DNA from: Candidatus Saccharimonadota bacterium
Lineage (GTDB): Bacteria; Patescibacteriota; Saccharimonadia; Saccharimonadales; Saccharimonadaceae
Assembly (NCBI GenBank): GCA_017514025.1
Contig: JAFWLB010000003.1
Coordinates: forward strand, 62,001 to 126,000
Reading direction: 5' to 3'
DNA length: 64,000 nucleotides
The translations under genes and the position numbers were made by a program. Within the stretch, counting starts at the first letter, position 1. Every line of letters begins with the position of its first letter. Shown in pieces: positions 14,130 to 59,706 of this stretch. Below the pieces are notes generated by a model. The model searched no databases, was not told the origin of the DNA, and worked only from the letters and a program-made list of their open reading frames with translations.

Positions 14130-15788
14130 CTATAGCCTCCCTGTATTTGGAGCTTTGGGCGGCGAAACAAAAACGTGTGTCAGCTCTACCGGCTCGCCTC
14201 GCATATCATCACCTAGCGGGGTCAAAGTTATCACATTATCCGCCGGAGCCTTTAGTCCTGAAATCACCACCGCATTCCCCTCTGCTATCCCCAAAATTTT
14301 CCCATTTAGCGCCACTAAAGTTCGCGTCCCCGTAGTCGCAAAATCCACTCTTACCGCCTCTTCGCTTACCGACTCCGCATCAAAGACCTCTAGCGTCGGC
14401 AAAACTGTAGGCGCTGCCGTTTCTTCTACTCGCGGCAAACTGTCATATCTCGCCATGATATAATCCGTCAACAGCGACAGCTCGTCCAGATTTGTCACCA
14501 CTTTACCATCTGTCTGCTTCGCCATTTCAGTATAATATTCCGCCGTATATTCATTAGTGATTATATAAAAATTCACCGGGTCAATGCGTTTGCTTAAGTT
14601 TATCACCTCATCGAAAGTTATTCCGTCTCGGTCTGGTGCCAAAAAGTTCGCGTCCGTCAGAATCACCAAAGATTTAGTCGAGCCTTGCTTCCAATTCAAA
14701 GCCTTCATCGTATGAAATGCTGCCGACAATAACGATTCGTCAAAATCATCTCCGCCTTCCGTCAAAATCGTCTCTAGTTCATTTTGGAACACTTCCAATG
14801 TACACGTCTCAAAATCACAGTGTTTGTGCAAGTCATACGGGTCGTCCAAATCCCGATAATCAAACAAAGCCACTCGTCCGCCAGATTCTAAAGTCTCTGT
14901 CGCCAGTCTCAAAGCTTCAGCTTTGTACTTATCAATCATGCCAGACATTGAGCCAGTCGAATCTAACAAAATCGCCGTATCATGTGGCGACGCCACTCGA
15001 TTTGGTAGTTTGAAATACTGCGTTATCTTGCTAAAAATCACTCGCGAAGCGTCTTCATACAAGTTTTCTCCTACATAGCCCGTGTGGTCGCTGATACTCA
15101 AATGCGAACTACAAAAAATATCGCGTCTGTTACACCAAGTCCCCACTTTGCCCGCCAAAGCCTCCGGCTCATACGGAATATACGCACCAAGTAGTCCCTT
15201 GTAGGCCTGACAATCCGGCACGTACATCCGGTAATCCGACAAATTTTCGCCCCGACACGCCGCCGGCAACAATCCCTTTCCTTCTGGCAAATACAGTTTT
15301 GGGTCACCAAAAGTCGCCGCATAAATCAATTTGTCTGAGCGCAAACTCCCCAGCGCCTTAGATATCACCATCGCCCCTTGTGAATAACCACCAATTACAT
15401 ATCTGGTGTAAGGGCAAGTCGTGGAATTCACCATTTTAGCAAGATTTTTTACACCCGTGTTCACACTATCGCCAAACTCATAAGCGTCCCCCGCCCCAAA
15501 GAACGCTCCCGCCGTCACGCTGAGATTATCCAGCCCCACTCCTACCGCCGGATAGTCTAGGTCTATAAACTCATAGCTCAAACTCGTAGTCGCTAGTTTT
15601 GCCCGCAAAGCCTCCTTAAATGCTAAATAATTTTTGTCCGTCCACCTTTCCCCACCCGACCCTCGCGCAAATACCACACGCAGATCTGGACAACTCTCAG
15701 CCTGCACGCTTTGAACCGCCGGTATGGTCAATATTTCGAACATCACTGCCGCTATTACGTAACGAATTTTAATTTTTTTGCCTCGCAT
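14130..15788 (-). CDS. Secreted cutinase-like esterase fused to a von Willebrand A domain
   Basis: 552 aa. A signal peptide (basic start, hydrophobic core, AxA-type site after VQSVQA near residue 30). Residues about 33-285 are a cutinase/PE-PPE-like alpha/beta hydrolase: FARGSGG, nucleophile Ser in IGGYSQGAMV, then Asp- and His-containing loops (CNRRDIFC, SISDHTGY), with several Cys suited to disulfides outside the cell. Residues about 290-470 are a vWA domain with a MIDAS (DSTGS) and ILTDANF. A final Ig-like stretch ends in PPKAPNTGRL, a PNTG sequence without the following hydrophobic tail. Start taken at the ATG preceded by GGAG 5 nt upstream; another ATG 12 nt upstream is possible. It may act on host lipids and adhere (inference). 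Confidence 0.85.
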   Translation of the reverse strand: MRGKKIKIRYVIAAVMFEILTIPAVQSVQAESCPDLRVVFARGSGGERWTDKNYLAFKEALRAKLATTSLSYEFIDLDYPAVGVGLDNLSVTAGAFFGAGDAYEFGDSVNTGVKNLAKMVNSTTCPYTRYVIGGYSQGAMVISKALGSLRSDKLIYAATFGDPKLYLPEGKGLLPAACRGENLSDYRMYVPDCQAYKGLLGAYIPYEPEALAGKVGTWCNRRDIFCSSHLSISDHTGYVGENLYEDASRVIFSKITQYFKLPNRVASPHDTAILLDSTGSMSGMIDKYKAEALRLATETLESGGRVALFDYRDLDDPYDLHKHCDFETCTLEVFQNELETILTEGGDDFDESLLSAAFHTMKALNWKQGSTKSLVILTDANFLAPDRDGITFDEVINLSKRIDPVNFYIITNEYTAEYYTEMAKQTDGKVVTNLDELSLLTDYIMARYDSLPRVEETAAPTVLPTLEVFDAESVSEEAVRVDFATTGTRTLVALNGKILGIAEGNAVVISGLKAPADNVITLTPLGDDMRGEPVELTHVFVSPPKAPNTGRL

Positions 15789-15866
15789 TTTTACTCCCAT
15801 TTTAAGTTTGGGAGAATTATATGCACATTCGTTCCAAAAGTTCAACCCCCCACCCCCCAAACGTGC

Positions 15867-57275: not shown

Positions 57276-59240
57276 ATGTTCAAGTGGGCAAATCTTTTTA
57301 GCCGTAATGAAATCGAGCGAGATATTTTTTCACCAAATGGCCGCATCCGTTGCCATTTTAGTCTAAACAATGGCAATATCAGTTATAGCGTCTACCGCGG
57401 CGACCAAACTCTCATCCGCCCTTCTCGGCTTGGATTTCTCATTTGCGGCGAAGACCCTCTTGGTCAAAATCTCAAACTCATTCGCGAGCAAAAACATCGC
57501 CACGAAGAAACCATCGAATTGCCTTGGGGCGAAGACCGTTTCATCTCGAACAATTATAACGAAACTGCTTTTTATCTCACCGAGAAAAAACAACCAAGTC
57601 GGATTTTCACCCTCCGTTTTCGGGTTTTTGATAGCGGCGTAGCCTTTCGCTACGAAATTCCACCTCAGCCCAAGTTCAGCCAAATCACCATCCAGGACGA
57701 AATCACCGAGTTCAACGTCGATCTCAACACTGTCGCTTGGCAAATCCCTGCTTATCAACCCGACCGCTACGAATACAACTACGAAAAAACTCCAGTTTAC
57801 GATTTAGAAAAATCCGTCCACACTCCCCTCACCCTTCGCACTCCCAACGGTTTTTATTTATCAATTCACGAAGCCGCTCTGTATAATTATGGTTCCATGA
57901 CCGTAAAACTTAATGAACGTCGCGCTCTCTCGACCGATATTACCCCCCTCTCCGATCATACCAAGGCCCACGTACTTTTGCCTTTCCAAACTCCGTGGCG
58001 ACTGATCATGATTGCCAACTCCGCCATCGAGCTCACCACCAACCGCTTAATTTATGCTCTCAACGATCCACCCGCCGAAGATTTTAGTTGGGTCAAACCT
58101 CTCAAGTTTATCGGCATTTGGTGGGCGATGTATGTCGGCGAGTGGACTTGGGCGCCAGGCGAACGTCATGGTGCTACTACCGGACACGCCCACGAATATA
58201 TCGATGCCGCTATCCGTCTCGGCGTTAGCGGACTTTTGATCGAAGGCTGGAACGAAGGCTGGGAAGGCAACTGGCTCGAAAACGGTATTCACAACAAATT
58301 CACCGTTGCCACTTCAGATTTTGATTTGCCCGCCGTTGCTCGTTATGCCGAGCAAAATGGCATTGAATTAGTCGGCCACCACGAAACCGTCGGCTTTGTC
58401 GACAATTACGAAGAACAGCTAGAAGATGCCTATAATTATTACGCCGCCAATCACGTTCATTATATCAAAACCGGTTACGCCGGCTCCATGATGTTAATTC
58501 ACGGTCGTCGCGAGTATCATCATTCTCAAGTCGGCGTCAATCATTATCAAAAAACCGTCGAACTCGCCGCCAAAAAACATATCTGTCTAGATATTCACGA
58601 ACCTATCAAGGGCACCGGCATTGAACGCACTTGGCCAAATTTATTATCTCGCGAAGGTGCCCGTGGCCAAGAATACGAAGGCGGCGCCCTCAGTCCTTCG
58701 CATGCTTGTTATCTTCCCTACACTAGGTTATTGTCCGGCGGTATGGACTACACCAGTGGTATTTTGGATCTCACTAATAGCGTCAAACGTATATCTACCA
58801 CTCTTGCCCGCCAACTAGCCTACTTTGTTACTATCTATTCTGGCATGCAAATGGCTGCCGATCGCCCGTTTATTTATGAAGAGCGTTTTCCGAAAGAATT
58901 TAACTTTATTCACGATGTCCCAGTCAATTTCGCCAAAACTCTCCCTCTCGCTGGTGAAATCGGTGAATATTACGTTGTTGCGCGTCAAGATCGTGACAGC
59001 GCCGACTGGTTTATTGCTGGCGTCACCGACGAATCCAGTCGCCATGTTCACATTAACCTCGACTTCCTCGACAACGGAGTCTATGCTGCCGATTTATATT
59101 GCGATTCAGACGACGCCCATTACCGCGAAAATCCCTTTGGTACCGATATTTCTCATCGCAAAGTTGGCCGCAGCGATTCGCTTGACATCTACATGGCGCC
59201 CGGCGGCGGTTTCGCTATTCGCTTACAGCGGTTAACATAA
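57276..59240 (+). CDS. Glycoside hydrolase family 97, alpha-glucosidase-like
   Basis: 654 aa. N-terminal beta-sandwich (SPNGRIRCHFSLNNGNISYSV, GVAFRYEI), central TIM barrel and C-terminal beta domain, the GH97 (SusB) architecture. Likely catalytic carboxylates are in GHHETVGF, DIHEPIKGTG and REGARGQEY, the pattern of inverting GH97 alpha-glucosidases. There is no signal peptide, so it is cytoplasmic, unlike most Bacteroidetes members. GH97 is mainly known from Bacteroidetes, so transfer is possible. TATAAT ends 6 nt before the ATG. Confidence 0.9.
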   Translation: MFKWANLFSRNEIERDIFSPNGRIRCHFSLNNGNISYSVYRGDQTLIRPSRLGFLICGEDPLGQNLKLIREQKHRHEETIELPWGEDRFISNNYNETAFYLTEKKQPSRIFTLRFRVFDSGVAFRYEIPPQPKFSQITIQDEITEFNVDLNTVAWQIPAYQPDRYEYNYEKTPVYDLEKSVHTPLTLRTPNGFYLSIHEAALYNYGSMTVKLNERRALSTDITPLSDHTKAHVLLPFQTPWRLIMIANSAIELTTNRLIYALNDPPAEDFSWVKPLKFIGIWWAMYVGEWTWAPGERHGATTGHAHEYIDAAIRLGVSGLLIEGWNEGWEGNWLENGIHNKFTVATSDFDLPAVARYAEQNGIELVGHHETVGFVDNYEEQLEDAYNYYAANHVHYIKTGYAGSMMLIHGRREYHHSQVGVNHYQKTVELAAKKHICLDIHEPIKGTGIERTWPNLLSREGARGQEYEGGALSPSHACYLPYTRLLSGGMDYTSGILDLTNSVKRISTTLARQLAYFVTIYSGMQMAADRPFIYEERFPKEFNFIHDVPVNFAKTLPLAGEIGEYYVVARQDRDSADWFIAGVTDESSRHVHINLDFLDNGVYAADLYCDSDDAHYRENPFGTDISHRKVGRSDSLDIYMAPGGGFAIRLQRLT

Positions 59241-59706
59241 ATCTATGGCTCGCATCGCCATCACTGTATAACTCCCCCGCACAAGTCATAATCACCAAAG
59301 TATCTTTTTCTGCTTTCGCCAAAATCTCGTTCATATTTATCTGCGTTTTTGGCACTAGTTCTCTCGCCACTACATGATAAATCTTGCCACTATATTCAAC
59401 TTCTGCCCCCAACTTCACCGCCGACAAATTTTCAAACACGGTGGTCGCATGCCCGATTAATAATGTTTTGTTCTCAGCTCGCGTATAAGCGCCCACAATC
59501 GCATCGGGCGTATCTAACTTCTGGCCATTGAGAGCTAGCTCCGTCACGTCAGAATCTAGCCCAACGGTTGGGATCGAAAGCTGTGCGGAAATTTCATAAT
59601 TCGCCGCTTCAGCCGGCTGCAAACCCACTATAATATATATAGCAGCCAACAACAAACTCAGCACCAAGAAAACCAATCTCGGATCACCGCGGCGTCTTAG
59701 CTCCAC
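59215..59706 (-). CDS. Sortase family transpeptidase
   Basis: 163 aa. N-terminal membrane anchor (about 10-30) and a compact sortase barrel with His86 (IGHATTVF), Cys142 (VIMTCAGEL) and Arg155 (SHRFMLTA). Short, closest in feel to class D/E sortases. The start codon is GTG with AGGAGGAG directly upstream, so it uses a ribosome binding site rather than leaderless initiation. A PNTG-type end on the cutinase-vWA protein might be related. It overlaps GH97 by 26 nt convergently. Confidence 0.88.
   Translation of the reverse strand: MELRRRGDPRLVFLVLSLLLAAIYIIVGLQPAEAANYEISAQLSIPTVGLDSDVTELALNGQKLDTPDAIVGAYTRAENKTLLIGHATTVFENLSAVKLGAEVEYSGKIYHVVARELVPKTQINMNEILAKAEKDTLVIMTCAGELYSDGDASHRFMLTAVSE

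Follow-up and report, generated by a model that had tools for sequence, protein, structure and literature searches.

The question raised by this locus is how to read the C-terminus of a secreted enzyme that carries a sortase-type motif and none of the tail that normally follows one. Among the three parts of a sorting signal, the hydrophobic tail is regarded as indispensable. In the window (the whole 64,000-nucleotide stretch of DNA that was analysed) a 552-residue protein is encoded with the order Sec signal, cutinase domain, von Willebrand A (vWA) domain, small beta-sandwich and a ...PPKAPNTGRL end that runs directly into a TAG stop codon (Table 1). Of the canonical LPXTG features, an export signal is present by sequence reading and an APNTG motif lies near the end; the hydrophobic and basic tail is absent, the residues after the motif being just RL. 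The first-pass annotation had described a secreted cutinase-like domain fused to a vWA domain and ending in APNTGRL without a hydrophobic basic tail, and this description stands, with Pfam matches to both domains, an intact catalytic triad and a Sec signal peptide. We find that the conserved tail-less, sorting-like end is the interesting part of this protein, more than the domain fusion, and that it should be read as an alternative sorting signal and not as a defect. Literature searches on cutinases or LPXTG proteins in Saccharibacteria and Patescibacteria found nothing on this protein.

The gene starts with an ATG at 15786-15788 on the minus strand, and its neighbours are typA/BipA, which begins on the same strand about 30 bases past the stop codon, and a divergent dCMP-deaminase-like gene; each of these is present in 49 of 59 long loci of the genus. 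The genome is a 0.68 Mb assembly in seven contigs. The protein is probably Sec-exported, as judged from the sequence reading of its N-terminus, and residues 8-21 of this segment form a helix in the AlphaFold2 model.

Table 1. Features of the cutinase-vWA gene and of the sortase gene in the window.
Feature	Position	Strand	Evidence
Cutinase-vWA gene	14130..15788	-	552 aa, translation stop-free; Pfam; in 166/174 genus genomes
Ribosome-binding site GGGAGT (GGAG-type), 5' of ATG	15793..15798	-	sequence reading
Predicted Sec signal peptide, ~residues 1-30, ...SVQA/ES	15699..15788	-	basic n-region, hydrophobic core, cleavage site of AxA type
Cutinase-family alpha/beta-hydrolase domain, residues 32-257	15018..15695	-	PF01083; structural match to cutinases/acetylxylan esterases
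Nucleophile Ser136 (GYSQG)	15381..15383	-	invariant in 137/137 aligned sequences
Catalytic Asp223 (CNxxDxxC)	15120..15122	-	invariant in 137/137
Catalytic His235	15084..15086	-	invariant in 137/137
vWA domain, residues 265-450	14439..14996	-	PF25106; integrin beta I domain match
MIDAS motif 1, D276-S-T-G-S280	14949..14963	-	D276 133/137, T278 118/137 (Ser in 14 more), S280 131/137
MIDAS motif 3, D379	14652..14654	-	127/137
Small beta-sandwich, FN3-like by strand pattern, ~residues 466-538	14175..14393	-	AlphaFold2 strands
C-terminal signal PKAPNTGRL, abutting stop codon TAG at 14130-14132	14133..14159	-	translation; orthologue census
Sortase, 163 aa, H-C-R residues present	59215..59706	-	PF04203 E 2.2e-8; nearest NCBIfam class D, below its cut-off

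Assignment to the cutinase family follows from the profile, the Ser-Asp-His triad and the fold together. The PF01083 Cutinase profile matches residues 32-251 with an E-value of 2.6e-19 (70.3 bits against a cut-off of 25.9), and the six listed cysteines show little or no variation among the 137 aligned sequences of the genus. In the AlphaFold2 model (mean pLDDT 82), residues 32-257 superimpose on 7cc4 (Z 21.7, rmsd 2.4, 184 residues), 1bs9 (Z 21.2) and M. tuberculosis Rv3802c (5w95; Z 20.4), such that cutinase and acetylxylan esterase structures match at Z of about 21, and the families retrieved when PDB sequences were searched by profile agree with the structural comparison. The protein thus shares with the family (fungal cutinases, acetylxylan esterases and the mycobacterial Culp/Rv3802c proteins) the profile match, the alpha/beta-hydrolase fold, the GYSQG and CNxxDxxC motifs, the histidine and the disulfide cysteines, whereas identity is only about 20%, the region of the C178/C193 cysteine pair is extra and the vWA fusion is a further difference. 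Esterase activity on acyl esters is a prediction from these sequence and model features. An orthologue lacks a recognisable vWA domain (L027), as does a neighbouring genus (L025-L028), so the esterase is the constant part of the protein.

The second domain is matched by VWA_4 (PF25106) above its cut-off (E 1.8e-7, residues 273-416), and residues 265-450 of the model align with integrin beta I-type domains (Z 21.7, rmsd 2.4, 183 residues aligned). Its MIDAS-like site reads DSTGSM...GGDD...TD, and the DxTxS motif and D379 are kept at about 86-97% per position among the 137 genus sequences. The earlier description of the MIDAS as intact therefore holds for D276, T278, S280 and D379; it does not hold for the second motif, where an Asp-containing GGGD loop replaces the usual threonine. 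No Pfam match was found over the small C-terminal beta-sandwich, a part of the protein that is absent from the first-pass annotation.

The tail-less end is a property of the whole genus. The gene is present in nearly all of its 174 genomes (166), and named relatives are Candidatus Saccharibacteria of the ruminant gut including Ca. Nanosyncoccus alces. Among 136 distinct orthologues having a stop codon (114 representatives under 75% identity), 125 have P-x-[TSA]-G near the end followed by a short hydrophilic tail, seven have near-miss ends (e.g. PNTA, PNTS and PDCG) and four have neither; 67 of the 114 representatives end exactly two residues past the glycine. The consensus is (I/V)PK(A/V)P(N/D)TG(R/K)x-COOH behind an otherwise unconserved linker. 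Entropy per position, about 3.8 bits over the linker, drops to 0-1.4 bits between P(-3) and G(+3) of PKAPNTG; the alignment was anchored by pattern, which forces the entropy of the P and G to zero but places no constraint on the P-K-A at positions -3 to -1 or on the residue that follows the anchoring P. In none of the genus orthologues is the motif followed by a hydrophobic segment; the two that were flagged by a hydropathy filter have their hydrophobic stretch upstream of it, with tails of two and five residues.

A frameshift or read-through that hides a normal tail was ruled out. The first-pass annotation had named a full sorting tail in relatives as the observation that would expose one, and no relative within the genus has such a tail; this absence, together with the conservation of the tail-less motif, indicates that the end is not a frameshift product. 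A hydrophobic stretch downstream of the stop codon was seen in just five of 372 frame tests (124 genes in three frames each), and the start of typA about 30 bases away leaves no room for a hydrophobic tail in another frame.

Outside the genus the picture is different. Cutinase-family matches are present in 38 of 151 genomes of the family, and just two genomes from outside the family were above cut-off in a phylum-wide sample of 380. Most of the orthologues in other genera end in a transmembrane segment and basic residues (a few have neither), and one has LPATG in front of its transmembrane tail (L078). Since the genus branches from within these tail-bearing relatives in the cutinase tree, a single loss of the tail at its base is the simplest account, and the tail-less state most likely arose there. 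This invites a reading in which the protein is a soluble, released esterase whose PNTG is the worn remnant of a sorting signal. The tails of the sister genera are as expected from it, as is the behaviour of S. aureus, where proteins that the cell itself exports require a hydrophobic tail and are secreted if they lack one (Schneewind 1993, as discussed in PMC3929722). The motif is also damaged or absent in 11 of the 136 copies, so anchoring is not absolutely required. A remnant should nevertheless decay like the linker around it, and PKAPNTG is the only conserved block there, at a near-fixed distance from the C-terminus in proteins that are mostly 40-65% identical; moreover, the motif with its added P-K recurs in lipases that became tail-less independently (see below). 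We consider a worn remnant unlikely.

In the course of comparing the orthologues we noted in-frame TGA codons in the cutinase genes of another genus of the same family (g11), in L015 (G094), L019 (G136), L029 (G144) and L085 (G120). They fall where relatives have a conserved tryptophan (for example SDE-TGA-RQF versus GEWQAF, and GDP-TGA-TNL versus GDPWTYL), the frames stay open past the TGA to a normal TAA or TAG, and in G094 a TGA aligns to tryptophan in four genes. These alignments suggest that UGA is read as Trp in part of this one genus of Saccharibacteria. A tRNA-Trp(UCA) was not found in the 20-kb stretches of g11 that were read (L357-L360). A UGA-to-Trp case is published for another patescibacterial family, JAKLIH01 (PMC13092985).

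The same end occurs on other secreted proteins of the genus. At the DNA level the pattern PK[AVT]P[ND]TG is found in 96 of the 174 genomes, mostly with one or two matches each, and the reversed control pattern gives a handful of matches. Besides the cutinase gene, the PKxP[ND]TG matches are ordinary tail-bearing surface proteins and further tail-less proteins. Examples of the latter are four secreted or surface proteins (L108, L115, L166 and L111), at least three of them unrelated, with PKAPNTG and two to four residues after it; Pfam scans of L108, L115 and L166 gave no matches above cut-off. Another is a secreted hydrolase of the Lipase_3 family, unrelated to the cutinase protein, which is present in 54 of the 174 genomes. 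Within one orthologous family of this lipase, 22 copies have PxTG followed by a transmembrane segment and basic tail, and 10 are tail-less with the same PxTG core, of which one ends in PMVPNTG and the other nine in PK[AV]P[ND]TG. The motif pattern itself brought in some of the tail-less copies; in a sample collected by homology only, all five tail-less copies keep the motif. A lipase tree computed without the C-terminal columns requires at least five changes between the tail-bearing and tail-less states, at least three of which are forced by well-supported branches. No other tail-less P[ND]TG protein was found in the genome of the window, where surface proteins with P[ND]TG otherwise carry ordinary tails. 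To judge from these alignments, the short-tail end is common to several protein families of the genus, and in the lipase it is interchangeable with a full signal.

These proteins also bear on whether a sortase is involved at all, since the end could be a recognition peptide for some other partner, for example another kind of secretion or processing machinery, or else the ligand of an envelope or host protein. The strongly preferred P-K and the basic residue after the glycine are not general sortase requirements, and P-K-A is conserved as strongly as P-N-T-G, both of which would fit a partner of this kind. However, PKxP[ND]TG lies also within ordinary tail-bearing sorting signals of the genus, the PxTG core is common to tail-bearing and tail-less lipases, and AbpA, a protein of the same design, is a proven sortase substrate (PMC4974636). 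A non-sortase partner is in our estimation a rather doubtful explanation.

A sortase gene had been noted at the far end of the window, about 43 kb from the cutinase gene and the nearest to it there, and its identity is upheld by a PF04203 match (Table 1). It is a candidate processing enzyme, with a presumptive link to the substrate. There are two more sortase genes in the genome, one class-C-like on contig C7 and one class-F-like, the start of which overlaps the end of secY (L043 1456-2154 and 2123-3067, on C6 at about 153 kb). A sortase adjoining secY is present in 29 of 30 loci of the family that were examined (L311-L340), and a genus-specific sortase as the cause of the tail-less end is rejected on this ground. 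Sortases were found in 172 of the 174 genomes of the genus and in all 151 family genomes sampled, and their co-occurrence with the tail-less end is therefore uninformative. In one genome without a sortase match (G261, 95% complete) the cutinase gene leaves the contig end before its C-terminus, and it is unusable for this comparison. The six-frame family search listed two sortases in the genome of the window and missed the one in the window that hmmscan finds (E 2.2e-8), so these counts per genome are lower bounds. As a separate observation, a sortase coupled to a translocon gene might help to catch proteins while they are emerging.

The reading of the end as an alternative, short-tail sortase signal is the best available and probably correct, and is supported by the genus-wide conservation of the tail-less state and by the repeated switching in the lipase. 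It draws on published precedents from AbpA and SrtB and from S. aureus SrtA. AbpA of oral streptococci ends KAGKALPKTSAVK (LPKTSAVK-COOH) and is anchored by SrtB, which cuts between T and S; the end suffices to anchor GFP, and part of the protein is released and found in the supernatant (PMC4974636). Like the protein described here, AbpA is secreted and has PxT[GS] with about three residues after it and no hydrophobic or long charged tail (PMC4974636). AbpA is an amylase-binding helical adhesin with an LPKTS motif and an adjacent sortase gene (PMC4974636), whereas in these Patescibacteria the protein is an esterase-vWA fusion with PKAPNTG(R/K)x, its sortase is not adjacent, and the signal is common to several families. 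Both have the PxT[GS] core and a very short non-hydrophobic tail; sortase cleavage and wall linkage are proven for AbpA and would be expected here by analogy. In both the genus end and the canonical LPXTG signal, a protein exported by bacteria with sortases carries a Pro-x-Thr-Gly core close to its C-terminus; the genus end differs in having no hydrophobic segment, a leaving peptide of two or three residues, Ala, Val or Thr in place of Leu, and Pro-Lys in front. Also against a sortase signal, the gene is not beside a sortase gene, and the motif is xPNTG and not LPXTG. For S. aureus SrtA, tail-less LPETG peptides added from outside are incorporated (PMC3929722), by a route that differs from that of native substrates (PMC9026250).

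In the mechanism that we propose, the protein would be exported by the Sec system and fold outside the cell into a serine esterase of the cutinase family and an adhesion-type vWA domain. A sortase would then recognise the C-terminal octapeptide PKAPNTGR, cut between Thr and Gly and join the Thr to an amine of the envelope. The leaving peptide of two or three residues would stand in for the hydrophobic tail, with looser capture as a consequence, and part of the protein would probably be released. The vWA domain may tether the enzyme to the surface of a partner, be it a host cell or matrix, as the esterase cleaves acyl esters, adhesion and lipid ester cleavage being the roles suggested by what is known of the two families. 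The interpretation in the first-pass annotation is thus supported in part, with attachment to a host and cutting of its envelope lipids as putative functions. AbpA is the single natural exception to the tail requirement shown experimentally in the literature searched, and prediction tools that require a tail will miss the PKxPNTG proteins described here. An exception that spans a genus and several proteins, in a lineage that depends on hosts, allows a test of whether already secreted proteins can be sortase substrates, and it bears on which enzymes Saccharibacteria place at the host interface, a long-standing question for Patescibacteria. On a broader and distinctly speculative view, the whole genus would have adopted dedicated short-tail signals (PKxPNTG-basic-COOH) for its secreted lipolytic enzymes and adhesins, in versions that can be switched; since the protein would exit first and be captured from outside, an epibiont could in principle place enzymes on the wall of its partner via sortase.

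The hosts of Saccharibacteria are Actinobacteria, and many of these possess sortases of their own; the attaching enzyme could conceivably be that of the host bacterium, in a form of cross-species sorting. Living Gram-positive cells take up external tail-less LPETG substrates (PMC3929722, PMC9026250), and an actinobacterial relative of the protein uses an LASTG signal. However, the genus has no known host, sortases are encoded by the epibiont itself, and the motif is APNTG and neither LPXTG nor LAXTG; we regard attachment by a host sortase as very improbable.

The actinobacterial relative is a protein on a plasmid of Arthrobacter sp. zg-Y1110 from marmot gut (NZ_CP104273.1, L345 3959-6313), which matches 99% of the cutinase domain at 33% identity and ranks first among the non-patescibacterial sequences of the plasmid and phage collections searched. 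It is Sec-exported with the same cutinase-vWA-beta domain architecture, and it differs in having a PKD domain and a full sorting tail with LASTG, a transmembrane segment and RRRR. We note that the annotation of this gene covers only the 3' part with the PKD domain, and the open frame extends upstream through the cutinase domain. An affinity of the cutinase domain to Actinobacteria, which the first-pass annotation had anticipated, is borne out in part: the domain is apart from the ordinary mycobacterial and rhodococcal cutinases and from phage lysin B, and the Arthrobacter protein falls within a mostly saccharibacterial group at weak support (82/85), in a tree with long branches whose outside reference set consists of plasmids and phages. 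Exchange of the cutinase with Actinobacteria, in either direction, is plausible from this placement. The fusion itself is not unique to Saccharibacteria, as plasmids of both Arthrobacter and Rhodococcus carry it. In the Rhodococcus 'cutinase family proteins' (L354-L356) the cutinase is likewise followed by vWA, but it is in a separate part of the tree, and the ends are rich in PGTGSA repeats and lack a membrane tail. The R. rhodochrous and R. pyridinivorans cutinase-vWA proteins, which are few and closely related sequences, end in LPGTGSAE(R/S)(V/I)FGR without a membrane tail, and these ends are possibly a parallel tail-less case.
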